This document shows, in pieces, positions 4,967 through 21,534 of a DNA stretch of 64,000 bases. The notes under the pieces are model-generated. The model was not told the DNA's origin and did not search any database. It worked only from the letters and a program-made list of their open reading frames with translations. Within the stretch, counting starts at the first letter, position 1; every line of letters starts with the position of its first letter. The position numbers and the translations under genes were made by a program. The DNA comes from Culicoidibacter larvae (GTDB taxonomy: Bacteria > Bacillota_I > Bacilli_A > Culicoidibacterales > Culicoidibacteraceae): NCBI RefSeq assembly GCF_005771635.1, contig NZ_VBWP01000003.1, positions 1 through 64,000 of the forward strand, read 5' to 3'.

Positions 4967-5918
4967 CTGAAAACCACATCCGATTCCAAAATCTTATTAA
5001 TAAAAATCGATAATTCCATAAATTCAAGGAATTACTAGATTTCACTTCCTTTTTGTCACTACTGTTTAAAATTTTTACATATGGCTTTAAAATAATTAGA
5101 TTCAAGTATGGACCGTTTAGAAAATCTAAACAAGCCTTGGCACATTTTTGTATCTTTATATTACTAAAATTCTTAATGTGTATATAGCACTTCTTTAACA
5201 TTTGCTTTCTATCCAGCAATCGTTTCTTTATCCATGCTTTTTCTTTACTAGTTGTTGTTGAGTTTTCTCTTATGTTTCGTTGATAAAATGTCTTATTAAC
5301 AAATCCTACACGCTTGGCTAAAGAAATCATATGAAAATAATATTCCAAATCTTCATGTAATTTTCCCACTTCATAAAACAAGTCGTTTGCAAGCAAGAAA
5401 TCTTTACTATAAAAGAATAACGTTGCTTGAACATTTCGTTTATTATATAATATCCAGTCATGATAAAAAGCCATTTCTCCACTAAGATTATCATATCCAG
5501 GGGTAGCCTCAACAACACGAGGTATTAATTCAATCTCACTATCGTTATGAAACTCATTCATCAAAAAACCAGATACTTCTGTATTATTGACTTCTGAAAA
5601 GTTAAAAAGTGCTTCGCATGCTTCAGCCAACAAAAAGTCATCTGAATCCACATATAAAATATATTTGCCTCGAGACTGTTTTAAAGCCATATTTCTGCTA
5701 TCACTTTGACCACTATTTCTCGGTTTTTGAATAAATACTATTTTATTTTCATATTCTACCAAAAATTGTTTAGCAACCTCGGCAGACTCATCAGTTGAAC
5801 CATCATCAATAACTAAAATCTCGATATCTTCTAATGTCTGATTTACTAGCGAATGTAAACAACGCTCTAAATACTGTTCCGTGTTATAAACTGGAACAAT
5901 TATACTCACTTTTGGCAT
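4956..5918 (-). CDS. Glycosyltransferase family 2
   Basis: A 320-residue cytosolic or membrane-associated enzyme with a GT-A fold. The first residues MPKVSIIVPVYNTEQYLERC, then LVIDDGSTDES and the DxD-type motif YVDSDD, are the standard GT2 signatures for nucleotide-sugar and metal binding. The start ATG directly follows the TAG of ugd, with a purine-rich stretch inside the ugd end serving as ribosome site, so translation is probably coupled. The C-terminal 100 residues are basic. Acceptor and donor sugars are unknown, though the adjoining ugd makes UDP-glucuronate a possible donor. Confidence 0.85.
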   Translation of the reverse strand: MPKVSIIVPVYNTEQYLERCLHSLVNQTLEDIEILVIDDGSTDESAEVAKQFLVEYENKIVFIQKPRNSGQSDSRNMALKQSRGKYILYVDSDDFLLAEACEALFNFSEVNNTEVSGFLMNEFHNDSEIELIPRVVEATPGYDNLSGEMAFYHDWILYNKRNVQATLFFYSKDFLLANDLFYEVGKLHEDLEYYFHMISLAKRVGFVNKTFYQRNIRENSTTTSKEKAWIKKRLLDRKQMLKKCYIHIKNFSNIKIQKCAKACLDFLNGPYLNLIILKPYVKILNSSDKKEVKSSNSLNLWNYRFLLIRFWNRMWFSDEK

Positions 5919-7220
5919 CTACTTTTCTCTCCCAATTGAGTAATAGTCTACTCCAGCAGCCTTCATAACTTTTGTCTCGTAACAATTACGTCCATCATAA
6001 ATATTAGCATCACTCATTAATGCTACAAATCTTTCTGCTGGATAATTCTTGATTTCTGCCCAATCAGTCATAATAAAAGTAATATCTTTTCCATTGATTG
6101 CATCATCGATATTCGTTGCATATTTTAATTTCTTACCATATTCTTTTTCAAATGCAGGAATCCCCTCCGGATCATACACTGTAATTTCGGCCCCTTCTTC
6201 TAGTAATAAATCAATATTATAGTACGCAGCTGATTCTCTTGTGTCGTCGGTTCCAGCTTTAAATGTCAAACCTAAAACTGCAACTTTTTTCCCTAAGAAG
6301 TTCCCAAAATCATCTTTCGCTTTATAAAACAGTCGAACTTTTTGATCATTGTTAATACTAATAATGCTATCAATTGTTTTAAAATCAAAATCATATTCAT
6401 TTTTTGCTAAATGAAATAATGCCTTAGTATCTTTTGGAAAACAAGAACCACCAAACCCGATACCAGCTTTCAAAAACTTATCTCCAATACGCGGATCATA
6501 CGACATACCTTTGGCAACCGTTTCAACATCTGCTCCGATTAATTCACAAAAATTAGCAATTTCATTAATGTAAGAAACTTTCAATGCCAAGAAAATATTT
6601 GAAGCATACTTTATCATTTCAGCACTAGCACGATTAGTACACACGATAGGTTGATTAAAAGGTGAAAAGATTTCATACATCTTTTCTTTCGCCCAGTCAC
6701 TTTCAACACCAATAACAATTCTTGATGCCTCTAAAGTATCTTTAACTGCTGTCCCTTGCGCTAAAAACTCTGGATTTGAAGCAACTTCAATATGAAGACC
6801 TGGTTTTACATGATCTTTCAAAAATTGTTCGATAATTTCATTTGTTCCAATAGGAACAGTAGATTTAACAACAACCAAAGTATCTTTATCTACTGATTCA
6901 GCAATCGTTGTTGCTGTTTGATACACATATTCTAGATTCGCTGTACCATCTTCAGACTCTGGAGTTCCGACAGCAATAAAGACAGTTTCTGCATCGTTAT
7001 ATGCTGTTTGAGCATCAGTTGTATACTGAATTTTCCCTGCTGCTGCAACTTTTTGCATTAATTCTTCCAGTCCTGCCTCATAAATAGGCGATTTTCCTGA
7101 ATCCATTAATGCAACTTTTTTTTCATCAATATCCACACATGTTACATCATGACCCATTTCAGCTAAACAAACGCCCGTTACCAAGCCAACATATCCTGTT
7201 CCCGCTACTGCAATTTTCAT
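5919..7220 (-). CDS. ugd: UDP-glucose 6-dehydrogenase
   Basis: Oxidises UDP-glucose to UDP-glucuronate using two NAD+. The N-terminal Rossmann motif is GTGYVGLVTG; the catalytic Cys lies in GGSCFPKD near residue 258, followed by the NAD/UDP-binding C-terminal domain (LGLTFKAGTDDTRESA). At 433 residues it matches the bacterial class. ATG at 7220 follows AAAGGAGAA. Together with GalU and GalE upstream it supplies activated sugars to the linked glycosyltransferases, implying that the polymer contains uronic acid. Confidence 0.95.
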   Translation of the reverse strand: MKIAVAGTGYVGLVTGVCLAEMGHDVTCVDIDEKKVALMDSGKSPIYEAGLEELMQKVAAAGKIQYTTDAQTAYNDAETVFIAVGTPESEDGTANLEYVYQTATTIAESVDKDTLVVVKSTVPIGTNEIIEQFLKDHVKPGLHIEVASNPEFLAQGTAVKDTLEASRIVIGVESDWAKEKMYEIFSPFNQPIVCTNRASAEMIKYASNIFLALKVSYINEIANFCELIGADVETVAKGMSYDPRIGDKFLKAGIGFGGSCFPKDTKALFHLAKNEYDFDFKTIDSIISINNDQKVRLFYKAKDDFGNFLGKKVAVLGLTFKAGTDDTRESAAYYNIDLLLEEGAEITVYDPEGIPAFEKEYGKKLKYATNIDDAINGKDITFIMTDWAEIKNYPAERFVALMSDANIYDGRNCYETKVMKAAGVDYYSIGREK

Positions 7221-7257
7221 TTTAAATTCTCCTTTATCAATTCGATCTATAATTATT

Positions 7258-8262
7258 TTATTTCCTTATAACAAATCTAAGCATATTCACTGTTAGTTTT
7301 GGATGCTTCAATAACATTCTAATATAGATACGATAAACAAACCTTAAACGTTTATAATACTTATTCTTACTCAAATCGCTCTTTTTAGCTATTTGAACTA
7401 GTTTATCAATTTCATTTACATCTGTTCCATACATTAATACCCTATACACTTCTCCAATAAGTAAATGATATACTTTTAAATAATCTAATTCCTCAATAAA
7501 GTCTTCATAGTGATTATATTTTTTATAATATCTCTCTACATCATCAAAAATACGAATCGTGTTGTCCACATTTAACATTTTTTTTATTGAAGAAGACTTT
7601 TCGTACACAAAATAGTCTAAAACATCTTTATCAAAAAAAGCGATCTTGCCACCCGTGAGCATTTGTCTTAATGTAAAATCTAAATCCTGATTGCGCAAGT
7701 ATTCTAAATGAAATAATGGATATTCAGTATCAACTAAAAGCGAATCTCGTTTATAAAGCTTACCCCATGGAGCGGTATACACATCAACTAAAATTTCTTT
7801 ATTATCAAGAATACTTTGTGCCACACCTTGTTCAATTGGCAACGAAACATTATAACTAAATTTCTTGGTAATCTTACTACTTGCTTCAGAAAATACACGT
7901 TTATATTTTGCCACAACAATATCAGCATCAGTTTCTTTTAGGTACTTCATCATTTTTTCAACACTTGAATAATAAAGAAAATCATCATTATCGAAGAACA
8001 TAATATAATCTCCTTGCGATAATTCAAATCCAACATTTCTGGCGTTGGAAACTCCGGGAACTTCTAAATCTAATACTTTTACCTTATCTGGATTATCTAT
8101 TTCATATTGTTTTGCGAGTAATAATGAATCATCCGTACTACCGTTATTAACCAATATTATTTCAATATTATTATAGGTCTGACCCAATAATCCATCCATA
8201 CATCTATGTATATCATTTGCTCCATTATAAATTGGAACAATGATACTAACTAAATCATTCAT
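7258..8262 (-). CDS. Glycosyltransferase family 2
   Basis: A 334-residue GT2 enzyme. It opens with VSIIVPIYNGANDIHRCMDG, continues with LVNNGSTDDS and the metal-binding FFDNDDF, then a largely helical C-terminus ending in a basic stretch. ATG at 8262 follows GAGGTAAAG. It lies between galU and ugd in the same direction, so it probably belongs to the same transcription unit. It resembles capsule or teichoic-acid decorating enzymes; its specificity is not readable. Confidence 0.85.
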   Translation of the reverse strand: MNDLVSIIVPIYNGANDIHRCMDGLLGQTYNNIEIILVNNGSTDDSLLLAKQYEIDNPDKVKVLDLEVPGVSNARNVGFELSQGDYIMFFDNDDFLYYSSVEKMMKYLKETDADIVVAKYKRVFSEASSKITKKFSYNVSLPIEQGVAQSILDNKEILVDVYTAPWGKLYKRDSLLVDTEYPLFHLEYLRNQDLDFTLRQMLTGGKIAFFDKDVLDYFVYEKSSSIKKMLNVDNTIRIFDDVERYYKKYNHYEDFIEELDYLKVYHLLIGEVYRVLMYGTDVNEIDKLVQIAKKSDLSKNKYYKRLRFVYRIYIRMLLKHPKLTVNMLRFVIRK

Positions 8263-8287
8263 ACTTTACCTCGTCTATTTTACAACA

Positions 8288-8313
8288 ATAAGGGCAGTCG
8301 AAACTACCCTTAT
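8288..8313 (-). terminator. Stable UUCG-capped hairpin between galU and the GT2 gene
   Basis: On the minus strand, ATAAGGGTAGT-TTCG-ACTGCCCTTAT forms a near-perfect stem with a UUCG-type loop just after the galU stop. No long T-run follows, so it may only attenuate read-through or protect the galU 3' end. Confidence 0.45.
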
Positions 8314-8317
8314 CATC

Positions 8318-9214
8318 TTATTTTTCCTCAACTAGTTGTTTAATATAGTTTTCTACTTGCTCATGCAACGAACTGTCACGTAAAGCATAGTCAATAGTTG
8401 CCTGAACAAAACCAAATTTGTCCCCAACATCATAACGACGTCCGACAAAATCATATGCATATACTTGCTGGCGAGCCATTAACCTTTTAATTGCATCGGT
8501 TAATTGAATTTCGTTTCCTGCTCCCGCAGCTTGTGTTTCTAACAAATCAAAAATTTCTGGATTCAATACATACCGTCCCAAAACAGCCATTTGTGATGGT
8601 GCCTCTTCAACGACCGGCTTCTCAATCATATCTGATAACTTGTATGTTCTTCCATCAACAGATTTTTGTGTTTTTGAAGGTGCAACGATACCATATTTAT
8701 TAACATCCTCTTTAGCAACTGTCTGTACACCAACAACAGACGCACCAGTTTGGTTATAAACATCAATCAGTTGCCCTAAAGCTGTAGTTTGCCCAGGCTC
8801 AGTATAAACAATATCATCGCCTAACAATACTGCAAACGGCTCATCATTAATAAATGCTTTAGCACAAAGTACCGCATGCCCTAAACCTTTAGGCTCCTTT
8901 TGACGAATATAGTGAATGTTAACCATGTTAGAAATATTTTGAACCATTTCTAACATCTCTTTTTTACCTTTTTTCTCCAAAGTATCTTCCAACTCATAAG
9001 ACTTATCAAAATGATCTTCAATTGAACGCTTATTCCCGCTGGTAATAATCAAAATTTCTTCAATTCCAGAAGCAATTGCTTCCTCAACGATAAACTGAAT
9101 TGTTGGGGTATCAACAATCGGCAGCATTTCTTTTGGCTGTGCCTTTGTCGCCGGTAAAAACCTTGTTCCTAATCCTGCGGCAGGAATTACTGCCTTCTTC
9201 ACTTGTTTCTTCAT
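8318..9214 (-). CDS. galU: UTP--glucose-1-phosphate uridylyltransferase
   Basis: Makes UDP-glucose from UTP and glucose 1-phosphate. The N-terminal signature [20 protein letters not shown] and the sugar-binding EKP motif ([12 protein letters not shown]) are present; the length of 298 residues is normal. I place the start at ATG 9214: the GGAGGT ribosome site lies between the possible ATG at 9232 and this one, at proper spacing only for 9214. galE ends at 9232 immediately upstream, and product flow GalU to Ugd/GalE explains the linkage. Confidence 0.95.
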
Positions 9215-9231
9215 TTGTTTATAGACCTCCA

Positions 9232-10224
9232 TTATTTTCCTTCGTATTCATATTTAGGCGCTTTTCGCCAATTATAATCTGATTCAATCATAGAAGCTAA
9301 ATCATATTCAGGAACCCAGCCCAACTCTGCTTCAGCACGTTTATTTGATGCAACAAGATAATCCGGATCACCAGCACGTCTTGGCCCATATTCAACAGGT
9401 ACCGGCTCAGCAAGAACCTCTTCAGTTGTTGTAACAATATCTTTCACTGAAAAACCATTGCTTGAACCCAGATTGTATGTTTTACTGGTCATAGTTTCAG
9501 CAAGTTTCTCAACTCCAAGAACATGTGCTCGAGCTAAATCAGTTACATGAATATAGTCACGAATACAAGTCCCATCTTCAGTATTGTAATCTGTGCCAAA
9601 AACAATTAACTTATCACGCAAACCTAACACCGCTTCATTCGTAGATGGGATAATGTGCGAAACAGTTTTGGGAGAAAGTCCAATCTGTCCCTCACCATCG
9701 GCTCCGGCCACATTAAAATAGCGGAAAATAGTATACTTAATACCATAAGGTGCCTCGCACCAACCAATTAATTTTTCAGCTGATAGCTTACTCTCTCCAT
9801 AAGGATTAATTGGTTTAGTTTCTGCGTCCTCAGTAATCGGTACCGACTGGTTTGGCATACCATATACTGCCGCAGTTGATGAGAAGATAAATTTATCCAC
9901 TTTAGCATCGCGCATTGCTTGCAACAATACTCCAACACCATAAACGTTATTCTCAAAATATTCAGCTGGTTGTTCTACGCTTTCAGGAACAACAATTTTT
10001 GCAGCAAAATGCATCACCGCATCAATTCCATGCTCTTCAAACACAGCATCCAACATTATCTTATCTCTAATATCACCTTCAACAAATGTTGCTTCACGAT
10101 GAATAGCTTTTGTATTTCCAGTAGATAGGTTATCATAAACTACTACTTCATGCCCACTGCGAATCAGTTCATAAACGGTATGGCTTCCAATATACCCAGC
10201 ACCACCAACAACTAGTACTCTCAT
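9232..10224 (-). CDS. galE: UDP-glucose 4-epimerase
   Basis: Extended short-chain dehydrogenase interconverting UDP-glucose and UDP-galactose with bound NAD. Seen: nucleotide motif GGAGYIGSH at residues 7-15, the catalytic Ser in STAAVYG, and YGESK (the YxxxK pair) around residue 145. At 330 residues it has the usual length. ATG 10224 follows AAAGGAGC. It is the first gene of the leftward sugar cluster and has its own strong promoter upstream (10257-10284). Confidence 0.95.
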
Positions 10225-10284: not shown

Positions 10285-10576
10285 ACCAAGAATCCGTGGT
10301 TTGATCTTCGTGTAAAAATTTATCACTGTAATGCACTAAAATCTTGGTTTTTAAATAATCAGCCTCATCGTCGACCGCATATATAAATCTGCTAGCTATA
10401 AAACATCATTAGTTCTACACTCGCCACTATCATTAACTGCCAGGATTCGAATTGGCATTATTTTCATAGCATCGAATTATTCAAAGTCAGCGCTTAAACT
10501 GTAAGACTAATAAAAGACCAAAAAAACTCATTCAAAAAGATTCCCACAAAACTTCGAACCGTCTATTAAAAGTTAA
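10285..10576. other. Gene-free stretch beside the tailocin
   Basis: No convincing ORF on either strand. It contains a 23-base element (10487-10509, core CAGCGCTTAA) that recurs with one mismatch at 11491-11513 between the two receptor-binding genes. This suggests the remains of a further, deleted receptor-binding cassette. Confidence 0.5.
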
Positions 10577-10606
10577 AAAAACGACTGACTAAAGTCAGCC
10601 GTTTTT
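10577..10606 (-). terminator. Terminator closing the tailocin operon
   Basis: Minus strand CGGCTGAC-TTTA-GTCAGTCG followed by a run of seven T, directly after the last receptor-binding gene. Nearly the same hairpin follows the other receptor-binding gene at 11601-11630. Confidence 0.85.
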
Positions 10607-10625
10607 CTCTATTAATTATTAGTAA

Positions 10626-11453
10626 TTAAAATACACTCTTTTCTCCCCAAATTCGTAACACTCTATATCTCATATTTTGACGATAAGTCTGTAGCTTCCC
10701 ATCACCAGCATTTTGAATTTCAAAAACTCCGCCAATAACACTCATATCCATTTTTTTATACCAGTGACATGCAATAGCTGCATATGTTATTGGAGCTGGA
10801 ATTATTGTCAAAGGACCACGAACCCAACGACCATCTAAATAGTAGTCATATTCTAGTCTTAAAAAATCAAAATTATTTGCTGATTCAGTTAGTGGCACTT
10901 GATAGGTCGTATAGTTTGTAACTGCATCTACCGTGCCTGAAAAAATTAGTCTTGTTTGGGCAACACGTTGACTCAGTTGCTTCAGAGTATTCTCATCTTC
11001 CTCCAACCGCGAATCCAAATTACTATAAGTCTTTCCGTTAACAGTTGAATTACGAGCCGTATTCACTTCGCTTACAACATCTTTCAACTTTGTCTCATCC
11101 GCTTCCAGACGCGCATCGACCGATGCATAATTCACTGCATATGCTGTCGAATTACGTGCCTGCTGAATCTCAGAACGCAAGTTATCATCACTCAAATCGT
11201 CCATAACTTCAACAATACGTTCTTCAACTTTTGTATCAACATACTCACTAACAGCAACAGACAACTCCTCAGTAAACCGACCAAAGTCATCATTTAATTT
11301 CGTTTCTAATTTCGTTGTTGTAGCAGCCTCATACTCATTCTGTGCATCAACTACATTTTCAAATCCATCCGCAATCGAGTCACGAACCTCAATCCCATAA
11401 ACCGCTTCACGAATTTTTTGTGATGTATCTCTTAATTTTTCTAATGCTCCCAT
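10626..11453 (-). CDS. Tailocin receptor-binding/tail fibre protein, copy 2
   Basis: A 275-residue protein. Residues 1 to about 155 are nearly identical in pattern to the other fibre gene at 11630 (shared start MGALEKLR, and the repeat LEADETKLKDVVSEVN). The C-terminal 120 residues are unrelated to it. A conserved N-terminal anchor with a variable tip is the normal plan of phage receptor-binding proteins. The shared part is rich in heptad-like polar segments, consistent with a trimeric stalk. ATG at 11453 follows GGAGGAATAAG. It is the distal gene of the tail operon, flanked by its own upstream terminator. Confidence 0.75.
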   Translation of the reverse strand: MGALEKLRDTSQKIREAVYGIEVRDSIADGFENVVDAQNEYEAATTTKLETKLNDDFGRFTEELSVAVSEYVDTKVEERIVEVMDDLSDDNLRSEIQQARNSTAYAVNYASVDARLEADETKLKDVVSEVNTARNSTVNGKTYSNLDSRLEEDENTLKQLSQRVAQTRLIFSGTVDAVTNYTTYQVPLTESANNFDFLRLEYDYYLDGRWVRGPLTIIPAPITYAAIACHWYKKMDMSVIGGVFEIQNAGDGKLQTYRQNMRYRVLRIWGEKSVF

Positions 11454-11490
11454 AATTACTTATTCCTCCAAGTTATTAAAATATTCAGAA

Positions 11491-11513
11491 TCAGCGCTTA
11501 ACCTGTAAGACTA
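11491..11513. repeat. 23-base repeat between fibre cassettes
   Basis: Matches 10487-10509 with one mismatch; both copies lie next to a fibre-gene terminator of the same sequence type. Together they delimit a duplicated cassette. Confidence 0.75.
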
Positions 11514-11600
11514 TTATATGCTATTTACCTCCTATTGAAACGCCAGAAAAATGTCATTCAAAAGACTATATTAGGACTAAAATCATAGTTATTTAAATGC

Positions 11601-11630
11601 AAAAAGACTGACCAAAGTCAGCCCTTTTTT
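11601..11630 (-). terminator. Terminator after the first fibre gene
   Basis: Minus strand GGCTGAC-TTTG-GTCAGTC followed by T4, overlapping the end of the 11630 gene. It resembles the terminator at 10577 and implies that the second fibre gene is expressed by read-through or its own weak promoter. Confidence 0.7.
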
Positions 11631-12463
11631 TACTCGATTATCCACGACGTATTTACTGGAAACCATTTATTAACTCCATATTGATCCGCGTTAGTAACCG
11701 CTTGTAAATCTAAGTTCCCTGTTTTATTTGATGTTTGCCATCGACATAAATACACATTACTTGTCGTTAACCAGTTCCCAGAATTAACAAATGTATGTGG
11801 CTGGCTAGGCCTAAAACCAACTGGAATATTCAAATATGTTCCTGCTTTAGTAATATTCTTCATTGCTCCACATAAATAGACCATATTCCCTACCTTGAGC
11901 AACATCACTTTTTCATCATCACTAAAAATTTGTGCGCCATTTATTGGCGTAAGCATAACTTTTTCAACCTTTAGTTTGCTCTCAGTTACTATTAATCGAC
12001 CTTCATCTTCCTCCAACCGCGAATCTAAATTACTATAAGTTTTCCCATTCGCAGCCGAATTACGTGCCGCATTCACTTCGCTCACAACATCTTTCAACTT
12101 CGTCTCGTCCGCTTCCAAACGTGCATCCACCGAAGCATAGTTCACTGCATACGCCGCCGAATTACGCGCTTGCTGAATCTCCGAACGCAAGTTATCATCG
12201 CTTAAATCGTCCATAACCTCAACAATACGTTCCTCAACCCGATCATTCACATACTCACTAACACCAACCGTTAACTCCTCAGCAAATTGCCCGAAGTCAG
12301 TATTCAGTTTAGTCTCGAACTTTGCAGTTGTAGCAACCTCATACTCATTCTGAGCGTCAACCACGTTCTCAAATCCTTCAGCAATATCCTCACGAACCTC
12401 TACCCCATATACAGATTCACGAATCTTCTGTGCTGTTTCTCTTAATTTTTCTAATGCTCCCAT
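11630..12463 (-). CDS. Tailocin receptor-binding/tail fibre protein, copy 1
   Basis: A 277-residue protein starting at ATG 12463 behind AAGGAGA; an upstream in-frame codon lacks a ribosome site. Residues 1-155 match the anchor half of the neighbouring fibre protein. The C-terminus is a distinct domain ending in a beta-rich tip with IPVGFRPSQPH, a motif common at the ends of siphophage tail fibres. It sits right after the Tal gene, where phage receptor-binding genes belong. Predicted to set the target range of the particle. Confidence 0.8.
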   Translation of the reverse strand: MGALEKLRETAQKIRESVYGVEVREDIAEGFENVVDAQNEYEVATTAKFETKLNTDFGQFAEELTVGVSEYVNDRVEERIVEVMDDLSDDNLRSEIQQARNSAAYAVNYASVDARLEADETKLKDVVSEVNAARNSAANGKTYSNLDSRLEEDEGRLIVTESKLKVEKVMLTPINGAQIFSDDEKVMLLKVGNMVYLCGAMKNITKAGTYLNIPVGFRPSQPHTFVNSGNWLTTSNVYLCRWQTSNKTGNLDLQAVTNADQYGVNKWFPVNTSWIIE

Positions 12464-12510
12464 AAAAATCTCCTTCCTCTTCGAAGTCCTTACAATAGCA
12501 AACAACTATT

Positions 12511-13644
12511 TTAAAGTTTTAACATATAATTAAACTGCTTAGTAATATACGCCGTTACATCCAAAAAATCAATGCGGCGATTAGCCAAAGTCAATATTGG
12601 CTCATGCGGGGCAAAAATATTCGTAGATATTTCAACAATCCGTAAGCTTGCCGAAATATCAAAAGCCTTATGCACTAAAGCAATCCGATCACCAATAAAA
12701 AAACTTTCCTCCACCTTTTTCAAGTGACTCAAATCCAACGCCCCCAACTTAATCGAAATCGTCGGCTCCTTATTGTCATTCAGACGCTGCTGCGCAGCCT
12801 CCTTCAAACTCTTCGCATCCTTATACTTAGTATCAATCCAAACCTCTTCAAAAACCCCATAAGTCTCAATTGAACTCTGATCCTGCAAATAATTCAAATT
12901 ACTATTTACGCTAGTAATATTGATATTCTTACCACTCACCTCAGCACCGTATGGAATAATCTTATTCACAACACTAGCTGCATCATAATCAATAGTAATA
13001 TCCTGCAAGTTCACTCCGGGAATGATAGTAATATTCGTATCATTCCCGCGCATAGCAACCAAATCCAAATAATTGCGATACTGATTATCAGTACGCAATA
13101 CAAACTCGCCACTGCTCAACTGCTCGCGCACTTTGTTCACCAAAGTACTATACTTCTCAACATTCGTTTCCAGCTTGTTTGCTAACGTATAGTTAGCAAA
13201 CACCCCCTTCTCCAAACGCCGTTCACCATCAACCTCATTATTGAACTTCGTCAACAAATCGGTCAACAACGCACTCGTCGTCGTAGCCGTTGGCACACTC
13301 TCGCAAAACGCATCACTTAAATAAGCAAACGCACTCTCACAGGCAATATCTTGTGTAAACATACCAGAATTGTCCATCTTTTGCGTAATCTTCAAGACTC
13401 GCCCGGAAAATACATACATCTCCTTTAAATGATCATAAACAAAAATCTTCGAACGCATCGCATGCAACTGTCCCCAAGCTGGGTTATTGGGATAAATACT
13501 AAAATGAAATTCATCAATCCCGCTTAGCTTCTGCTTCAACGTCCCGCTCGCCAACTTTGGTGCATCAAAACTCGTAGACGGAGCATGAATCAAAGTTGTC
13601 TCAACACTATTATTCACTTTTTGTCGTAAAAAAATACTATACAT
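12511..13644 (-). CDS. Tail-associated protein Tal / prophage endopeptidase tail
   Basis: A 377-residue protein with the baseplate-hub fold typical of gp18/Tal N-terminal domains: LSGIDEFHFSIYPNNPAW near residue 40 and KMFVYD-like strands (SKIFVYDHLKEMYVFSGRV). In siphophages it closes the tail tube and leads peptidoglycan or membrane penetration. It is shorter than many Tal proteins and no lytic domain is visible at the C-terminus. Its ATG overlaps the Dit stop codon, indicating translational coupling. Confidence 0.8.
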   Translation of the reverse strand: MYSIFLRQKVNNSVETTLIHAPSTSFDAPKLASGTLKQKLSGIDEFHFSIYPNNPAWGQLHAMRSKIFVYDHLKEMYVFSGRVLKITQKMDNSGMFTQDIACESAFAYLSDAFCESVPTATTTSALLTDLLTKFNNEVDGERRLEKGVFANYTLANKLETNVEKYSTLVNKVREQLSSGEFVLRTDNQYRNYLDLVAMRGNDTNITIIPGVNLQDITIDYDAASVVNKIIPYGAEVSGKNINITSVNSNLNYLQDQSSIETYGVFEEVWIDTKYKDAKSLKEAAQQRLNDNKEPTISIKLGALDLSHLKKVEESFFIGDRIALVHKAFDISASLRIVEISTNIFAPHEPILTLANRRIDFLDVTAYITKQFNYMLKL

Positions 13645-14339
13645 TATAATCGCTCCATTACAAATTCAATCTGCACATTCCCGGTTCCGGCAAAGGTAAC
13701 CTCATTCGCACCCTCAAGCAATTCAAGTCCGTAATAATCAAACTTACCAACCTTCAAACTCGTCGCCTTACCATTAACAACCATTGTCATCGCACTTGTT
13801 GCGGTAATTGTTAACACTGACACATTGTGAAGAAAGACAGTTTCCGCTGCCGAGCCGGCCACCGTAAACTCAAGATTTTGCAGCCAATCAGTCTCAAAAC
13901 AAAACGTATCCCAAAGCTGTTTGGAAAAGTAACCCTTAATTCGGAACGGATAAGCCGTCAATTGCAACTTCACACTAAAGTAACCGCCAAACACCTCTTC
14001 AAAAACCGGCGTCGCTTCCAGCTCCGCCATATAGTACCAGCCAATAATATCGGAAAACTCTAGTTTCTGTTTTCCAATACTAGTAAAAAAGTCCATAACC
14101 TTCTGATGCAAAATAAACGCCTGCTCACGACTTTTCGCAGCTAACAATAGCTGCACCTCAATCGCTCGCTCGCCATAATAATTCTTCGCCTCATTCGCAT
14201 AAGTAAAATCATAAGTACCATTCATATATGGAATTTCAGCTTTAATCTTCCGCTTTTCAGGGTAACCAATCGCAATGTCCTGGATGAAAATGGCCTTACT
14301 TACTTTCGATAATTCTTTCTCTGCAAATTTTATCTCCAT
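13644..14339 (-). CDS. Distal tail protein (Dit)
   Basis: A 231-residue protein of the siphophage Dit family, the hexameric hub linking tail tube and baseplate. Visible hallmarks: N-terminal region with YPEKRKIKAEIPYMNGTYDF, then RAIEVQLLL and SVKLQLTAYPFRI, then a galectin-like C-terminal half. I start it at ATG 14339 (ribosome site GGGGGTAGG); the alternative TTG at 14345 overlaps that site. It lies between tape measure and Tal, the canonical position. Confidence 0.85.
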   Translation of the reverse strand: MEIKFAEKELSKVSKAIFIQDIAIGYPEKRKIKAEIPYMNGTYDFTYANEAKNYYGERAIEVQLLLAAKSREQAFILHQKVMDFFTSIGKQKLEFSDIIGWYYMAELEATPVFEEVFGGYFSVKLQLTAYPFRIKGYFSKQLWDTFCFETDWLQNLEFTVAGSAAETVFLHNVSVLTITATSAMTMVVNGKATSLKVGKFDYYGLELLEGANEVTFAGTGNVQIEFVMERL

Positions 14340-14346
14340 ATTCAAC

Positions 14347-15858
14347 CTACCCCCTTAATAATAAATTGAGATCAAAAGTATTCATATCTTTCAGATGCGG
14401 ATTGACAATCTGTGCCACCTGTTTCCCATCTAAATTCAACTGAATAACAATATTCTCATTACTGCCACTATCTTTACCGAGCGCCTTATGTCCACTTGTA
14501 AGTGGAATAACTGATGTCTTTGCTCCACGCTGAAGCAACATTTCCGGACCAGCTTCCCCAACAATTGCCATCCCGCCGGACATAACTGTCCCACCTTTAG
14601 CAAGCATAGGAAGTGCGCCAATATTAACTCCAGGAATATTATTAATCCCAGAAATTACAAAGTTAATTGGGCTAATTACAAAATCATTAATCATTCCCTT
14701 AATATTTTGAATTGCTCCATCAATAGCACCGAAAATTGCGTCTCCAATACCAGCAAAAAATCCAGACACCGCATCCCAAACGCTTTTCACTTTGTTCCAA
14801 GCTGTCGTAAAGGCATTAATAATGAAATCTTTTACTCCACTAATGACACCCGTAATTGTATCTATTACTCCACCAATGAAGCTACCGATAGCACTAAATA
14901 TACCCATAACAATTGGTGATAATGTTTCCCAAATAGCAATTATTATTGCTATAGCTGTTTGAATTATTACCCAAATCACTTCCATAACGACCACAATAAA
15001 ATCCCAAATTGCTTGGAATACTGCCATAATAGTTTCTCCGTGCTCTTCCCAAATTGCCATAATGGTTTCAACTATTACTGAAATAATACTCCAAATCACT
15101 TCCATAACAACTACAATAAAATCCCAAATTGCTTGAAATACTGCCGTTATTGTGTCACCATGCTCTTCCCAAATTGCCATGATTGTTTCCACTACCACTA
15201 CAATAACATTCCAAATTACTTCCATTGCCATCATAATGAAATCCCAAATTGCTTGAAATACCATCTTAATTTCTTCTTCGTGCTCTGTCCAAAACTTAGA
15301 TAAATCTTGAATTATTGCTCCAATAAATGCAAGTAAATCATCCATGATGGAGGAAATTCCTTCTTGAATACTATTCCAGATTCCTAAAACTGCATTTCTA
15401 AATTCTTCGTTTGTATTCCAAAAATGCATTAATGCAGCAACTGCCGCTGCAATAACTATCGCAATAAGTGCAATCCATCCTCCAGACAATTTTGTTGCAT
15501 CCCCCAGTGACTTCATCGCTTTTGCCGTTCCTTGAACAACTCCCGCCGCATTTCCTGCTAACCCGCCAAACAATGCAAGCGAATCAAGAAATCCAGTCAA
15601 TTCAGGAGGAGCAACATCTTTCAAGTTTTTTGCTAACTTTTCTAAGCTAGATCCTGCATCCTTTATTCCTCCTGCAAAATCAATAAACTCTTTACTTATT
15701 TTTGGAGTCTTCACTTCTTTGAACTCAGCATCAATAACTACAGGCTTTACTGCTGGCAAATGTTTTACATAAGGAATAAGCGGCATTTTTACTTCTGGAA
15801 CATCAACCTTAACTACCTCATACTTAGCATCAATAACTACTAATTCATTCTTCGCCAT
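14347..15858 (-). CDS. Short tail tape-measure protein
   Basis: A 503-residue protein with a Gly/Ala-rich hydrophobic region and long amphipathic repeats. Residues around 195-310 are built from a 40-residue unit (FQAIWDFI...ETIMAIWEEHG) present about three times. The C-terminus has GGTVMSGGMAIVGEAGPEML, a tape-measure signature. The family sets tail length; at roughly 1.5 angstrom per residue this would give a tail near 75 nm, an inference. Most phage tape measures are longer. ATG 15858 follows AAAGGAGTGG. Confidence 0.85.
   Translation of the reverse strand: MAKNELVVIDAKYEVVKVDVPEVKMPLIPYVKHLPAVKPVVIDAEFKEVKTPKISKEFIDFAGGIKDAGSSLEKLAKNLKDVAPPELTGFLDSLALFGGLAGNAAGVVQGTAKAMKSLGDATKLSGGWIALIAIVIAAAVAALMHFWNTNEEFRNAVLGIWNSIQEGISSIMDDLLAFIGAIIQDLSKFWTEHEEEIKMVFQAIWDFIMMAMEVIWNVIVVVVETIMAIWEEHGDTITAVFQAIWDFIVVVMEVIWSIISVIVETIMAIWEEHGETIMAVFQAIWDFIVVVMEVIWVIIQTAIAIIIAIWETLSPIVMGIFSAIGSFIGGVIDTITGVISGVKDFIINAFTTAWNKVKSVWDAVSGFFAGIGDAIFGAIDGAIQNIKGMINDFVISPINFVISGINNIPGVNIGALPMLAKGGTVMSGGMAIVGEAGPEMLLQRGAKTSVIPLTSGHKALGKDSGSNENIVIQLNLDGKQVAQIVNPHLKDMNTFDLNLLLRG
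14990..15290 (-). repeat. 120-bp tandem repeats in the tape-measure gene
   Basis: About two and a half diverged copies of a 120-bp unit (40 codons). A change in copy number would lengthen or shorten the tail in steps without breaking the frame. Confidence 0.8.
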
Positions 15859-15878: not shown

Positions 15879-16163
15879 TTATTTAAATATGTTCCCGCGC
15901 TCGTCGAGGGAACCAACTTTTATCTTCTCATCTTCATCCTGCGGAAAGAGTGGCATTTCCTTCCGATTTTTCGGTCGATTTACATTATATTCAGCATTTA
16001 TAATTACCATCCGTAATAGTTCAGCATCTTGTTTTTGTTTCTTCTGACTCATCATCAGCATCTCTTGCAACTCAGCTTGCGTCAACAACCAAAACTCTTG
16101 ACTATCGATCGCCAAATAAACCCGTGCTAAAGCTACCCATTCCTCATAGTCAGTCTGCTCTAC
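15879..16163 (-). CDS. Frameshift extension of the tail chaperone (T part of gpGT)
   Basis: This frame has no good start of its own: the first usable codon is TTG at 16115 without a ribosome site, while the frame is open back to the end of the upstream chaperone gene. It joins that gene through a -1 shift on GGGAAAG (16163-16169). The product would be a fusion of 132 plus 94 residues. The T part contains EEWVALARVYLAIDSQEFW and a polar C-terminus. In lambda-like tails the fusion binds tape measure and tail tube protein during assembly and is absent from the finished particle. Confidence 0.8.
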   Translation of the reverse strand, partial: VEQTDYEEWVALARVYLAIDSQEFWLLTQAELQEMLMMSQKKQKQDAELLRMVIINAEYNVNRPKNRKEMPLFPQDEDEKIKVGSLDERGNIFK

Positions 16164-16558
16164 TTTCCCGCTTTACTAGCCGCTGCCTTTTGCTTCTTCA
16201 TATTTTTTTCCATCTCAATGCGCTGTTTTTGTGACACCATTGAACTTGCCAAGCCCATAAATAAATTTTCCAAGAAAACATCATAACCCATTTTTTCAAT
16301 CACTTGATCAATCAGTTCCTCAGCCTCTTCATAAGTAAGCGTCATTTGGCTTCCGTACTCAACACCAACCTTAAAAATTTTCAAAATCTCATCATTGGTA
16401 ACTGTACGACTTTTATCGCCAAGTCCGGCAAATAGATTATTAATATCTATTTGCTCAATCATTTCCAGCTTTCTGCGCGCTCCAAATGGAAACCGCAATT
16501 CTACCTTCGAACCACTGCCATCTACATTGCTATACTCTAAAATTGTGTTTGCTATCAT
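16160..16558 (-). CDS. Tail assembly chaperone (gpG-like)
   Basis: A 132-residue acidic/helical protein between the major tail protein and tape-measure genes, the fixed position of the gpG chaperone. ATG 16558 follows AAAGGAG. It ends in a Lys/Ala-rich tail, with the stop codon TAG set immediately after the slippery heptamer GGGAAAG. A fraction of ribosomes should slip to make the longer gpGT form. No enzymatic motif is present or expected. Confidence 0.8.
   Translation of the reverse strand: MIANTILEYSNVDGSGSKVELRFPFGARRKLEMIEQIDINNLFAGLGDKSRTVTNDEILKIFKVGVEYGSQMTLTYEEAEELIDQVIEKMGYDVFLENLFMGLASSMVSQKQRIEMEKNMKKQKAAASKAGK
16163..16169 (-). promoter_or_regulatory. GGGAAAG slippery site for programmed -1 frameshift
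   Basis: In the chaperone frame the codons read GCG-GGA-AAG-TAG, so the heptamer G-GGA-AAG lets both tRNAs re-pair one base back as GGG-AAA and continue at GTA. It is the same heptamer used in phage lambda G-T. The zero-frame stop follows at once. Confidence 0.85.
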
Positions 16559-16625
16559 ATTAAAACTCCTTTTCTATCTTTGACAAATGAAGCGCAGATA
16601 TACATCCGCGCTATTTATTTTATCC

Positions 16626-17033
16626 TTATGCTTGTGCTTTTGAAGACACTAAAGGTCCTGAACCTTGTAATGTCATACTATAAGTTAACGCATCATCAAA
16701 TGGCGCTTCCATAGGGAAATCAGTAATCAATACTTGCCCTTGCTCTTTTTCATTTGTTGCTTCATTATGTAAAACAATAGTCACTGCTTCACCATCAACA
16801 AATGCTGTTTTCAATTTAGCTAATGCTGCATCATCGGCAACATAAATACCATCACAATCAACCGACCACTCTTTAAATCCAGTAATGAATGTTTTATATC
16901 CACCACTTGATTTTGAAGTTGTTTCAATCGGCTCTGCCGAACGATTTAATGTCGCACCCTTTTGTCCTGCGATCACTTTTTCAGTTGTCCCGTCTAAAAT
17001 TTTTACTACTACCTTTGCTCCTGCCATACTCAT
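16626..17033 (-). CDS. Major tail (tube) protein, TP901-1 type
   Basis: A 135-residue beta-rich protein with GYKTFITGFKEWSVDCDGIY and the terminal region DALTYSMTLQGSGP, typical of phage TP901-1-like major tail proteins that polymerise into the tube. ATG 17033 is nine bases after AGGAGG, the best ribosome site of the operon, as expected for the most abundant subunit. It matches the role of the LmaA antigen in Listeria monocins by position; homology was not tested. Confidence 0.85.
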   Translation of the reverse strand: MSMAGAKVVVKILDGTTEKVIAGQKGATLNRSAEPIETTSKSSGGYKTFITGFKEWSVDCDGIYVADDAALAKLKTAFVDGEAVTIVLHNEATNEKEQGQVLITDFPMEAPFDDALTYSMTLQGSGPLVSSKAQA

Positions 17034-17046
17034 AAATTTCTACCTC

Positions 17047-17388
17047 CTATAATTTTTCCATGAATCCAAACTCAAAATCCACTCGTGCCTGATACACACG
17101 CGTCTCCTGAATTCGAACGGCATTAATTTTTTCATTCTGCAATACATACTGGGCATGTGCAAAACTTACTTGCCCATATGCCTCAATAATCTTATCAACC
17201 ATCTGTGCCAGAGTCTCCCCCAACTTTGGCTGTAAAATGTAAAGTGATACTGATACTGCAGAATATTGATTGCTTTTTGTTACATTATCATGAACGACCA
17301 CTTTGCCGACTGTCGCTACAGTTTGATCGTAGCCAGCTCGCTGCAAACATCTATTCATGTAATCAACAACTAATTGTGATTTAATCAT
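17047..17388 (-). CDS. Tail terminator/completion protein
   Basis: A 113-residue protein in the first position of the tail operon, just upstream of the major tail gene. Order and size fit a tail terminator (gpU-like) that caps the tube. Seen: a helical N-terminus and a strand-rich C-terminus (RVYQARVDFEFGF). In a headless particle this cap would seal the end where a phage head would join. The start at 17388 has only a weak ribosome site. Confidence 0.6.
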   Translation of the reverse strand: MIKSQLVVDYMNRCLQRAGYDQTVATVGKVVVHDNVTKSNQYSAVSVSLYILQPKLGETLAQMVDKIIEAYGQVSFAHAQYVLQNEKINAVRIQETRVYQARVDFEFGFMEKL

Positions 17389-17490
17389 TCTTCCATATCA
17401 CCCTATCTAAAAAATTTGACAATTCCAGCACACATACAAATGTTATTTTTGGATATCTCTTCATCCCATAATTGCTGCTCTCTTGTCATA

Positions 17491-17518
17491 TGGTGAGCTC
17501 AACCATGATTAAATTATA
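17491..17518 (-). promoter_or_regulatory. Tail-operon promoter with palindrome at +1
   Basis: Minus-strand TATAAT (17513-17518), then 7 bases, then the near-palindrome TGGTTGAGCTCACCA (17491-17505). The same arrangement stands before the holin gene. No good -35 box is seen, suggesting dependence on an activator. Confidence 0.65.
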
Positions 17519-17606
17519 CCCCGTATTTTAAAGACCAAAACGCCACCATTAAGCCCGCTTTCCGCCTCACTACAGCCACCAAAACGACTGGAAAAAGCCA
17601 CAAAAA

Positions 17607-17632
17607 AAGCACGTCCTAAAGACGTACTTTTT
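17607..17632 (-). terminator. Terminator after the endolysin gene
   Basis: Minus strand AAGTACGTC-TTTAG-GACGTGCTT followed by T5, separating the lysis unit from the tail operon. This explains the need for a second promoter at 17513. Confidence 0.85.
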
Positions 17633-17645
17633 TAATATTTCTATT

Positions 17646-18356
17646 CTATTGAAAAGCATTTTTCTCAAGCCATGCTAAACGGAAATGTTTATCAACTTGC
17701 ACTTCACACAAGTAGAAATCATTTTTCTCAGTTAAAATGATTTCTACCCATTGTGGCTTTACCTTAACAACATTATTGTAATTATTTTGATTTCCAAAAC
17801 CAACTAGATTTTGATCACCCCAAGCTGGTGTATGTCGTACCCAAGCTTCTTTCTTTAAATACTTGCTGCCTTTATCCCACATAAGATAGTTCTCCTCCTT
17901 GATTGTAATTTCAGTTAATCCATTTTGTACTATATTATACGGATCAATCTTTTCTCCGTTCTTCTGTACTTCGAAATGCAAATGCGGCGCGTAACCGCCG
18001 CTGCCTCCCTCACTGCCAATTCGATCACCTTTTTTTATCATAACACCATTAGCAATTGCTATAGTATCGAGATGTAAATAACGAATGGTATATTCGCCAA
18101 ATCGCACTCGCACTTCATTTCCGGCAGCTCCGTTATTATATAATACTTCTGCTGTACCGCTTGTTACTGCATAAATAGGTGTCCCCAAACCTTGTGTCAA
18201 ATCGATACCGCCATGTCCTTTATAAGGATTAGGCGTTGCTGTCATAGAATAACCATATTCTGCAACCCAATCACGGATGCCACTACCATAACTCTTGTTA
18301 TCAAAAAGACAAGTTACTTTTACTTCTGCTTTGTGGGCCAAACTATAAATTCTCAT
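17646..18356 (-). CDS. Endolysin, M23 peptidase with C-terminal SH3-like region
   Basis: A 236-residue cell-wall hydrolase. The M23 (lysostaphin-type) zinc ligands are visible: HGGIDLTQG (His and Asp), YLHLD, and HLHFEV. The C-terminal 75 residues (from MWDKGSKYL) look like a wall-binding domain. There is no signal peptide, so export depends on the holin whose gene overlaps by 14 bases upstream. I start it at ATG 18356 (site GGAAGGGG). Cleaves peptide cross-links so that assembled particles are released by lysis. Confidence 0.85.
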   Translation of the reverse strand: MRIYSLAHKAEVKVTCLFDNKSYGSGIRDWVAEYGYSMTATPNPYKGHGGIDLTQGLGTPIYAVTSGTAEVLYNNGAAGNEVRVRFGEYTIRYLHLDTIAIANGVMIKKGDRIGSEGGSGGYAPHLHFEVQKNGEKIDPYNIVQNGLTEITIKEENYLMWDKGSKYLKKEAWVRHTPAWGDQNLVGFGNQNNYNNVVKVKPQWVEIILTEKNDFYLCEVQVDKHFRLAWLEKNAFQ

Positions 18357-18741
18357 GTTTGTCAGCCCCTTCCTCATCTTCTGCATGTTGTTCTTCCTCA
18401 AGTTTGCTGATTAAACTATGTAATTCTTTCGGTAACTCAATATGGTTACGAACTTTCTTAATGATACTTAGAAACTGTATAATTGTCATCCCAGTCAACA
18501 CAGTGAAAAGTACCGTAGTATTTTGAAATAAAATGTAGCTGATCGCACCACTGGCAACAATTACTAATAAAATCATCATCTTGCGAATTAATCCATCAGT
18601 CAAAATCGTATGACTAAAAGTCTTACTGATAATTGCCGCTAAAATTCCCATAACAACATCAATTGTCATTACTATGATTAAAATCATTAACGGTATTTCC
18701 ATTGCTGTTAATCCATTAATAAATAGCTCATAAAAATTCAT
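18343..18741 (-). CDS. Phage-type holin
   Basis: A 132-residue membrane protein with three to four hydrophobic helices (residues about 15-40, 48-75, 80-95) and a highly charged C-terminal tail rich in Glu, typical of the toxin-secretion/phage-lysis holin family. It makes the membrane lesions that let the overlapping endolysin out. ATG 18741 follows GGGAGGAAG. It leads the lysis unit driven by the promoter at 18788. Confidence 0.8.
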   Translation of the reverse strand: MNFYELFINGLTAMEIPLMILIIVMTIDVVMGILAAIISKTFSHTILTDGLIRKMMILLVIVASGAISYILFQNTTVLFTVLTGMTIIQFLSIIKKVRNHIELPKELHSLISKLEEEQHAEDEEGADKHENL

Positions 18742-18863: not shown

Positions 18864-19244
18864 TTAAATTATTTCGCAGGATTGAATAGTTTTTACCGCT
18901 GCATTCAGATATCTCTGACATGTTTTTTCAGAATAATTAAGTTCCATAGCAGTTGCAACCCAAGAATTGCCGGAAAACAATCGTTCCTCGACAACTGAGC
19001 GTTGATCATCTGATAAAAGTGAAAGCCATCGTTCAACCCGTAACTTTGTAATTTGATTTTGATTCATTGCCTGAGTTAGTTTATCTCGTTCACTGCGATG
19101 ATCATCAAATTCTCCATTTAAGGACATTTCCTTATTAGTCAGTTGCATATTTTGATACATGGCAATTTCCTTTTCCCAACCAGCAATCAATCGACACACT
19201 TTCGGGTACGCTTTAAAATCTTCAATTATTTGTTTCTTATCCAT
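18864..19244 (-). CDS. Phage-type late-gene transcription regulator (sigma-70 region 4-like)
   Basis: A 126-residue protein. The C-terminal third reads like an HTH of sigma region 4 or ArpU/RinA activators: LLSDDQRSVVEERLFSGNSW followed by a recognition-helix segment ELNYSEKTCQRYL. The N-terminus is helical and charged. It is the first leftward gene after the repressor and precedes the lysis and tail units, the place of a late activator. ATG 19244 has the ribosome site GAGGTGAG. Family assignment is by pattern only. Confidence 0.65.
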   Translation of the reverse strand: MDKKQIIEDFKAYPKVCRLIAGWEKEIAMYQNMQLTNKEMSLNGEFDDHRSERDKLTQAMNQNQITKLRVERWLSLLSDDQRSVVEERLFSGNSWVATAMELNYSEKTCQRYLNAAVKTIQSCEII

Positions 19245-19270
19245 TCATCTCACCTCTCACTAAAATATGG

Positions 19271-19377
19271 ACACATCTGTAATCATTTGTTTACAATACT
19301 ATGTTATCATATATGAACACGTTTGTAAACTATATTTTACAAAATAATTGACTTTTTGTAATTTTTAGTTTACAATA
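19271..19377. promoter_or_regulatory. Divergent control region with repeated operator sites
   Basis: GTTTACAATA occurs at 19289-19298 and 19368-19377, and its inverse TTGTAAAC at 19323-19330. ACAC[A/G]T[C/T]TGTAA occurs twice (19271, 19317). The rightward promoter is TTGACT (19348) -17- TACAAT (19371); a plausible leftward one is TTTACA -17- TAACAT. One site overlaps the repressor's own -10, suggesting autoregulation. Confidence 0.65.
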
Positions 19378-19394
19378 GTATTGAGGTGATATAT

Positions 19395-20090
19395 ATGGCA
19401 ACAAAAACGTTAGCCAAATACATTCAAGAATACCGGCAAGCACACAATCTTTCATTGCGTGACTTTGCAGCTGAATGTGATTTAAGCCATACTTATATCA
19501 GCAAACTCGAAAAGGGGATAGATGATCGAACCGGAGCGGCTATAGAGCCGAATTTACAAATATTAGAGCAGATTGCCAAGGGTACACATACGGATTTAAC
19601 TAATCTTTTAATGTTACTTGGCAAAATTGACAGCTCACTTATCTATTATGATGATATTCCCTTGTCTGAATCAGAAGATGCTCAAATGGAACATGTTGTT
19701 CAGCTTCCTATCCTGGGAGAAATTCGCGCCGGCGAGCCAATCTTTGCTGATGAACACATTATGGGATATGAATATATCAATAAGGATGAAGTAAAGACCG
19801 GAAAATTTTTCTTTCTCCACGTAGTTGGCGATAGTATGATAAATGCCCGAATCTATGATGGTGATACAGTTTTAGTGCGGAAGCAAGAAGACGTTGATAA
19901 CCGCGATATCGCTGTTTGCTTAGTAAATGATGATACCGCAACTCTGAAACGAGTAATGAAGACTGATCAAGGAATCTTCCTGCAACCGGAAAATCCAAAA
20001 TATGACCCTTTATTTTTCTCGCATCAGCAAGTCTTGAATGGTGAAGTAAAAATTATTGGTAAAGTTATAAAAGTTATTTTTAAACTCTAA
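19395..20090 (+). CDS. S24-type phage repressor (XRE-HTH plus LexA-like protease domain)
   Basis: A 231-residue CI/LexA-style repressor. N-terminal HTH (residues about 8-65) with DFAAECDLSHTYISKLEKG; C-terminal S24 domain with the cleavage site RAG in LGEIRAGEPIF, the nucleophile in VVGDSMI and the base Lys in TLKRVM. The family cleaves itself with RecA* after DNA damage, so induction by SOS is expected. ATG 19395 follows GAGGTGAT; an upstream GTG overlaps that site. It is divergent from the late genes and is the only plus-strand gene of the tailocin. Confidence 0.85.
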   Translation: MATKTLAKYIQEYRQAHNLSLRDFAAECDLSHTYISKLEKGIDDRTGAAIEPNLQILEQIAKGTHTDLTNLLMLLGKIDSSLIYYDDIPLSESEDAQMEHVVQLPILGEIRAGEPIFADEHIMGYEYINKDEVKTGKFFFLHVVGDSMINARIYDGDTVLVRKQEDVDNRDIAVCLVNDDTATLKRVMKTDQGIFLQPENPKYDPLFFSHQQVLNGEVKIIGKVIKVIFKL

Positions 20091-20555: not shown

Positions 20556-20586
20556 AAAAAACAGGCCGAAACGGCCCGTTTTTTTA
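20556..20586 (-). terminator. Terminator after the Alg13-like gene
   Basis: Minus strand CGGGCCG-TTT-CGGCCTG then T7; also works in the other direction. Confidence 0.85.
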
Positions 20587-21054
20587 TAATTCATCAATAT
20601 ATTTACCAACTGTTTCAACAATCTGATTGCTAAAATCATATGGTTTCGGGGTAAAATTTTGTGCCTTGCGAATCGCCCGGGTCACATCAGCATGAGCATC
20701 TAAAATATAGCCGCCCTTAGCCAATTTGCTAACCAGCTCCACCTGATGATCATCATTGTGCTCGCCAAACTCTGCTAGCCGCGCCATTGCAATAACTTTT
20801 TTCTGCAAATGCATAGCCTGAAACAAAGTTCCGGCACCGCCATGAGCGATAATTAGGTCTGCTTCATTAAATAAGCGCTCGTATTCCTCGGGGGAAAAAT
20901 ACTTACTAATATGCATGCGTTCACTTGCATAATCAGTGACCCCCACTTGAGCAAAAATTTCATCTTCCAGTTGCAATTTTTGCACTGCCTTCTCAACTTG
21001 ATCCATTAATCGTGGGAATGGACTATCCTGAGTTCCCAATAAAATTAGAATCAT
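20584..21054 (-). CDS. Glycosyltransferase, Alg13/CpsG/EpsF-like catalytic subunit
   Basis: A 156-residue protein matching the C-terminal half of family 28 transferases: ILLGTQDSPFPRLMDQVE at the start and the donor-binding ADLIIAHGGAGTLFQAM around residue 85. In capsule clusters such proteins pair with an Alg14-like membrane partner to add the second sugar to a lipid-linked primer. Here the partner gene lies 15 bases upstream in the same operon. ATG 21054; the pair stands apart from the sugar cluster at the left end. Confidence 0.8.
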   Translation of the reverse strand: MILILLGTQDSPFPRLMDQVEKAVQKLQLEDEIFAQVGVTDYASERMHISKYFSPEEYERLFNEADLIIAHGGAGTLFQAMHLQKKVIAMARLAEFGEHNDDHQVELVSKLAKGGYILDAHADVTRAIRKAQNFTPKPYDFSNQIVETVGKYIDEL

Positions 21055-21069
21055 TACTTATCCACTCCT

Positions 21070-21534
21070 TTATAAAATTGTGCCGTGATATTCAGCATTC
21101 TTATAGACTTTTTTCATTTCCGGCCATTGAACAATTATCTTGTCACATTTCTTCTCGATAATTTTTCCAGTCATAGATTGAGAATGTACTCTGGCACAAC
21201 TTTCAATAAAAACAATTTTTTTGCGGAAAAGTTTAGCAATATAAACCATTGGTACTGCGCTATGAGCACCAGTTGTAACAATCACATTTGGTCTAAAGGT
21301 AATAAAGTACCAGAATGAAAGCAAACAATTAATCGCAAACTTAAATGTATACGAAACAATATGCTTACGGGTACCAAAAATCAGATACTGAATCGGAATA
21401 TCCAGCTGTAACGACTTTGTCGTTTCACTCTTCTCCGTAATTAATTTGCTCTTGTATTTAGTAAAAAGCGGCTTCAGTTTTAAAAGTTCACTTAAATGAC
21501 CGCCACCCGAACTAATGAAAATAACTTTTTTCAT
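21070..21534 (-). CDS. Alg14/CpsF-like membrane partner of the glycosyltransferase
   Basis: A 154-residue protein starting KKVIFISSGGGHLSELLKL, the Alg14 Rossmann-type motif, with a hydrophobic segment (CLLSFWYFITFRPNVIVTTG) and VFIESCARVHSQSMTG. The family recruits the Alg13-type subunit to the membrane and contributes acceptor binding. ATG 21534; only 15 bases separate it from its partner, so co-expression is likely. Confidence 0.85.
   Translation of the reverse strand: MKKVIFISSGGGHLSELLKLKPLFTKYKSKLITEKSETTKSLQLDIPIQYLIFGTRKHIVSYTFKFAINCLLSFWYFITFRPNVIVTTGAHSAVPMVYIAKLFRKKIVFIESCARVHSQSMTGKIIEKKCDKIIVQWPEMKKVYKNAEYHGTIL

Follow-up and report, generated by a model that had tools for sequence, protein, structure and literature searches.

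The window analysed here, a stretch of 64,000 nucleotides of Culicoidibacter larvae DNA, contains a tail gene locus that spans 19.4 to 10.6 kb and in which every tail, lysis, and control gene is intact and in order. The tail genes are arranged as major tail protein, G, T, tape measure, Dit, Tal, and fibres, which puts G and T after the gene for the major tail protein and before that for the tape measure. Apart from the G/T junction, the features are, from the control end onward:

19386-20090, plus strand: CI/LexA-like repressor with S24 peptidase domain (PF00717, 2.5e-28; phrog_4, 2.1e-35)
19265-19384, no strand: divergent control region in which operators of the TTTGTAAAC type are repeated
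18864-19244, minus strand: ArpU/RinA-like late activator (phrog_36, 2.2e-13)
18343-18741, minus strand: holin (PF05105, 3.1e-12; phrog_199)
17646-18401, minus strand: M23 endolysin (PF01551, 1.9e-19)
17047-17388, minus strand: probable tail terminator/completion protein (weak PF11367; placed as the phrog_176 tail terminators of related loci L016 and L017)
16626-17033, minus strand: major tail protein, LmaA-like, Phage_tail_2 (PF06199, 2.4e-25; phrog_1407, 1.5e-37)
16591-16612, minus strand: terminator-like hairpin between the major tail protein and G genes (consensus match only)
14347-15858, minus strand: tape measure protein, 503 residues (phrog_58, 6.9e-34)
13644-14345, minus strand: distal tail protein Dit (phrog_33, 7.9e-14)
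12511-13644, minus strand: tail-associated protein Tal, Prophage_tail (PF06605, 4.1e-34; phrog_3558, 7.9e-71)
11630-12505, minus strand: tail fibre 1 (phrog_3285, 3.1e-8)
10626-11453, minus strand: tail fibre 2, a paralogue of fibre 1 with another C-terminus (85% identical over the first 157 residues)
10575-10608, minus strand: terminator-like hairpin at the operon end

Together with a further terminator-like hairpin past the lysin gene (17603-17633), the hairpin at 16591-16612 could set separate levels of lysis, tube, and chaperone products. The same genome has a complete prophage on contig C9 whose lysin (L180, 3533-4297) resembles the one listed here, which hints at exchange between this prophage and the locus. 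The fibre paralogues (10626-12505) stand in tandem with unrelated C-termini, and a similar small hairpin follows each. A fibre pair resembling them occurs in L122 (16873-17592 and 18929-19666); such tandem pairs suggest stored alternative receptor-binding ends. The fibre-like protein of L017 (4358-5527) carries a Hint/intein-like C-terminal segment (HYDTLVTMWDGTRKKV...).

Reading frames at the G/T junction

The junction itself is made up of the following elements:

16160-16558, minus strand: G, tail assembly chaperone, 132 residues, with its own ribosome site (assigned by profile, predicted fold, and place between major tail protein and tape measure protein)
16173-16175, minus strand: TAA opening the T frame
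16163-16169, minus strand: slippery heptamer G_GGA_AAG
16160-16162, minus strand: TAG that ends G in the zero frame, directly abutting the heptamer
15879-16163, minus strand: T, an extension of 94 codons entered by the −1 shift (phrog_7848, 1.5e-10; PF09550 weak)

GGGAAAG (16169-16163) adjoins the stop of the 132-residue reading frame, which in the zero frame reads GCG (16171-16169), GGA, AAG (16165-16163), and TAG. After a −1 slip, the reading would instead be GGG AAA GTA GAG and onward to TAA at 15881-15879. Counted from GTA, the −1 frame holds 94 sense codons and the fusion 226 residues (132 + 94), so that the frames bear out the initial annotation, which had placed a −1 site at the chaperone stop and followed the frame for 94 codons to 15879. 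As the TAA at 16173-16175 confines the overlap to 13 nt, this is the sole stretch where a −1 shift could enter T, and GGGAAAG lies inside it. Among the 14,648 codon positions of the 46 minus-strand genes in the window, in-phase GGGAAAG occurs once, at G/T, and in-phase X_XXY_YYZ heptamers of any kind occur at 74 (0.5%), which for the two positions available in the overlap corresponds to a chance of about 1%.

G alone found no convincing match in direct sequence searches of phages, plasmids, and 395 genomes of the class, and a sequence search among solved structures returned nothing relevant. At the profile level, hhalign aligns G with its counterparts from 17 relatives (probability 94.6, E 7e-8), and three members of a 17-member set of relatives' G proteins match Phage_TAC_12. 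Its predicted fold (pLDDT 82) is best matched by a phage tail assembly chaperone (E 5.9e-5), with the fusion record of phage Saudage (A0A345AU70) at rank 4; a fold search of the PDB gave no match. The same fusion is matched by the predicted fold of T (E 4e-5), so that both halves meet in a single annotated protein. A 72-residue ORF in a phage-like region of the same genome (L002, contig C12, 1456-1674) has a YPFGARRKLEII motif in common with the N-terminal part of G.

T is 37% identical to T frames of Paenibacillus phages (Fernvirus) in tblastn and reaches 40% identity with its counterpart in a headless Cytobacillus locus. Its conserved columns (D-Y-E-E, L-T, N, P-L-F) start upstream of the first TTG. 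This bears on whether T might be a separate gene, initiated at TTG 16115 or by re-initiation past the G stop. The resulting 78-residue ORF is what most mechanical ORF callers would report, but no Shine-Dalgarno sequence is present near the start codons of the junction (TTG 16115; the next TTG or ATG from 16088 onward), while G, major tail protein, tape measure, Dit, and Tal all have one. Moreover, the tblastn similarity sets in at residue 8, ahead of the TTG, and a start at 16115 would delete the first helix of the model (residues 7-20), and with it conserved residues. Together with the conservation of the slip site described below, this makes independent initiation of T very improbable, and the view that the T frame lacks a real start holds.

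Slip sites in relatives and a proposed mechanism

Since G had no convincing direct matches, relatives were collected through the neighboring major tail protein, in phages, viral contigs, genome contigs, and further genomes; a tape measure search of the viral contigs and the first major tail protein search of the genome contigs yielded nothing. Removal of near-duplicates left 103 loci, in each of which G is overlapped in the −1 frame by a T of 80-160 codons. As these loci were selected for the overlap, they test the heptamer and not the overlap itself. An in-phase slippery heptamer lies at most 60 nt from the G stop in 90 of the 103 distinct relatives. Within the G/T overlaps, 130 heptamers are in phase compared to 9 and 5 in the other phases, and the rate across the remainder of G predicts 6.4.

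The slip sites themselves vary and comprise TTTTTTC, TTTTTTA, TTTTTTG, AAAAAAG, AAAAAAC, CCCAAAG, and GGGAAAG. One prophage relative that has portal and capsid genes, L015/L019, repeats the exact layout of GGGAAAG followed directly by TAG. The depositors of phages Jacopo and Silence annotated G and T as joined, and both complete prophages of the C. larvae genome have a −1 G/T overlap, at CCCAAAAAAC and at nine A followed by G. Some relatives show no G/T pair under the mechanical rule, and the overlap of EG103P2 differs. A general lack of both heptamer and frame overlap, which would have spoken against programmed shifting, is not the pattern that the relatives display.

A split of G and T by frame would also result if one fusion gene had been broken by sequencing error or decay, leaving T as a pseudogene remnant. 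However, the split and its slip site are found in about 90 distinct relatives, annotated phages included, and the remaining genes of the operon are intact; we regard this explanation as still more improbable than a separate start of T. On four independent lines, namely the heptamer in the only usable overlap, homology of G and T to the two halves of known tail-chaperone fusions, the conserved slip site, and the lack of a usable T start, the site is very probably a programmed −1 ribosomal frameshift site of the lambda G/GT kind.

The adjacent stop codon possibly helps the shift. The initial annotation had gone further and expected it to raise shifting by pausing, but a stop flush with the slip site occurs in only six of the 103 loci, most relatives having 6-15 nt in between. 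We therefore rejected the flush stop as part of the design or as a general requirement. Likewise, a computed fold of the RNA just downstream of 16160 gave no stable structure beyond shuffles (z 0.07 to 0.64), and a simple, low-efficiency site is thus most likely. As no Shine-Dalgarno-like stimulator is obvious either where one would usually lie upstream of GGGAAAG, the efficiency of slipping may be low. In Streptococcus- and Lachnospiraceae-type relatives (L050, L052, L070, L096, and others), a Shine-Dalgarno-like GGAG, GAGG, AGGA, or AGGG often lies 2-16 nt upstream of TTTTTTN. Such a stretch, absent at the GGGAAAG locus, accompanies 37 of 61 sites (a raw count) and is a possible stimulator there.

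In lambda, the tape measure is covered by G, the less abundant GT delivers the major tail subunit, and both leave afterwards; in E. coli, G_GGA_AAG ranks with the most shift-prone heptamers (PMC5009743). By analogy, we infer the slipping, its efficiency, and the binding roles at the present locus. Most ribosomes would stop at TAG and release the 132-residue G, which would coat the tape measure protein. A minority would slip one base back on G_GGA_AAG to give the 226-residue GT, whose T part would draw in the major tail protein and so let the tube polymerise round the tape measure. G and GT would then both depart. The 226-residue protein would escape a standard ORF list.

A tail locus without head genes

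Terminase, portal, capsid, and integrase genes are absent from the locus, which accordingly falls outside the definition of a complete prophage. All ORFs of at least 100 residues on the locus strand between 10.6 and 19.3 kb could be assigned to tail, lysis, or control. The non-contractile tail module is complete, no sheath family was found at the locus, and a regulator and a holin-lysin cassette are present. Both flanks are chromosomal. One carries galE and, as judged from their translations, genes for galU, UDP-glucose dehydrogenase, and glycosyltransferases; the other carries Alg13/Alg14-like genes and fakA. The TerL and capsid matches of this genome lie elsewhere, at C3:84-88 kb and on C9.

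This gene content points most probably to an F-type tailocin of the monocin-like kind. Such a tailocin would be repressor-controlled and would be released by its own holin and lysin as a siphophage-type tail without a head. The S24 domain of the repressor suggests SOS control, and formation of particles and killing of related strains are predictions from sequence. The initial annotation was right about the frameshift, and it missed this headless setting, that is, a probable tailocin and not a phage.

Alternatively, the frameshift may be real and the locus an eroded prophage or a satellite. The genome has complete prophages that could lend heads, one of them on the same contig about 10 kb past the window end. 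Yet these prophages carry tail genes of their own, the tail, lysis, and control genes of the headless locus are all intact and ordered, and the same plan is found in five headless relatives from unrelated Bacillota. Erosion or a satellite lifestyle is therefore unlikely, although not to the degree of the two alternatives for T. For the joint explanation, a lambda-kind G/GT frameshift in a locus that is most likely an F-type tailocin, we estimate a probability of about 0.9.

The five further headless loci, which came from the same searches and an ORF survey, are those of Cytobacillus purgationiresistens (L111), L122, Lachnoclostridium An181 (L127), an Erysipelotrichales genome (L138 = G277), and Inordinaticella (L150 = G008). 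Here, headless means no portal matches and no long upstream ORFs, as the capsid marker is unreliable and also flags the major tail protein. Counting the window locus, a slip site in a G/T overlap is present in all six. The Lachnoclostridium locus carries an inserted transposase gene (16649-17781), and this copy may be inactive. The window locus itself belongs to a sparsely sampled family.

Two of the six lie inside surface-polysaccharide clusters (window 5000-10224 and 20584-21534; L016 335-1480 and 12882-14264), and weapon genes and possible receptor genes may travel together there. As a rule for tailocins of this kind, the link was rejected: it holds for the window locus and L016/L138 and was not seen at L111, L122, and L127.

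With some reserve, we favor the view that headless, repressor-controlled clusters for siphophage-type tails, F-type tailocins, turn up repeatedly in distant Bacillota and retain the G/GT frameshift though never joining a head. The frameshift would then persist in loci that need only a tail, and selection on the G:GT balance would concern only the assembly and length of the tube. Such a set would also be useful for asking what the G:GT ratio does when no head is involved. F-type tailocins have been called rare (PMC10811719), and Gram-positive bacteria have yielded very few cases, the monocins; headless loci with a common plan are therefore a useful lead for new bacteriocins.

Comparison with known systems

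The observation is confirmed as correct and its mechanism as well supported, and the device is the ordinary one of long-tailed phages. It was described before, as the passage of PMC5009743 that cites Xu, Hendrix and Duda (2004) sets out. A G/GT frameshift in tailocins was not reported in the part of the literature covered by our search.

The heptamer of lambda G/GT is likewise G_GGA_AAG. The two systems also agree in the −1 shift near the end of G, in the continuation of T in the −1 frame, and in the order major tail protein, G/T, tape measure. In contrast to lambda, the stop is flush with the heptamer and no head is encoded in the locus, and G and T of the window are unrelated to those of lambda by simple sequence search. 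Also comparable are the Paenibacillus larvae Fernvirus phages Jacopo and Saudage and the Bacillus phage Silence, which have a homologous major tail protein and annotated frameshift joins, the Fernvirus T showing the 37% identity given above. These are complete phages, however, and the slip site is an A-rich run in Jacopo and CCCAAAG in Silence instead of GGGAAAG. The monocins of Listeria, encoded by the F-type tailocin locus ftb (PMC7076858), share siphophage-type tail genes, regulators, a holin-lysin cassette, and an LmaA-type major tail protein with the window locus. While this cassette is most downstream in ftb, it lies upstream of the tail genes in C. larvae, and the likeness described here is one of overall plan.
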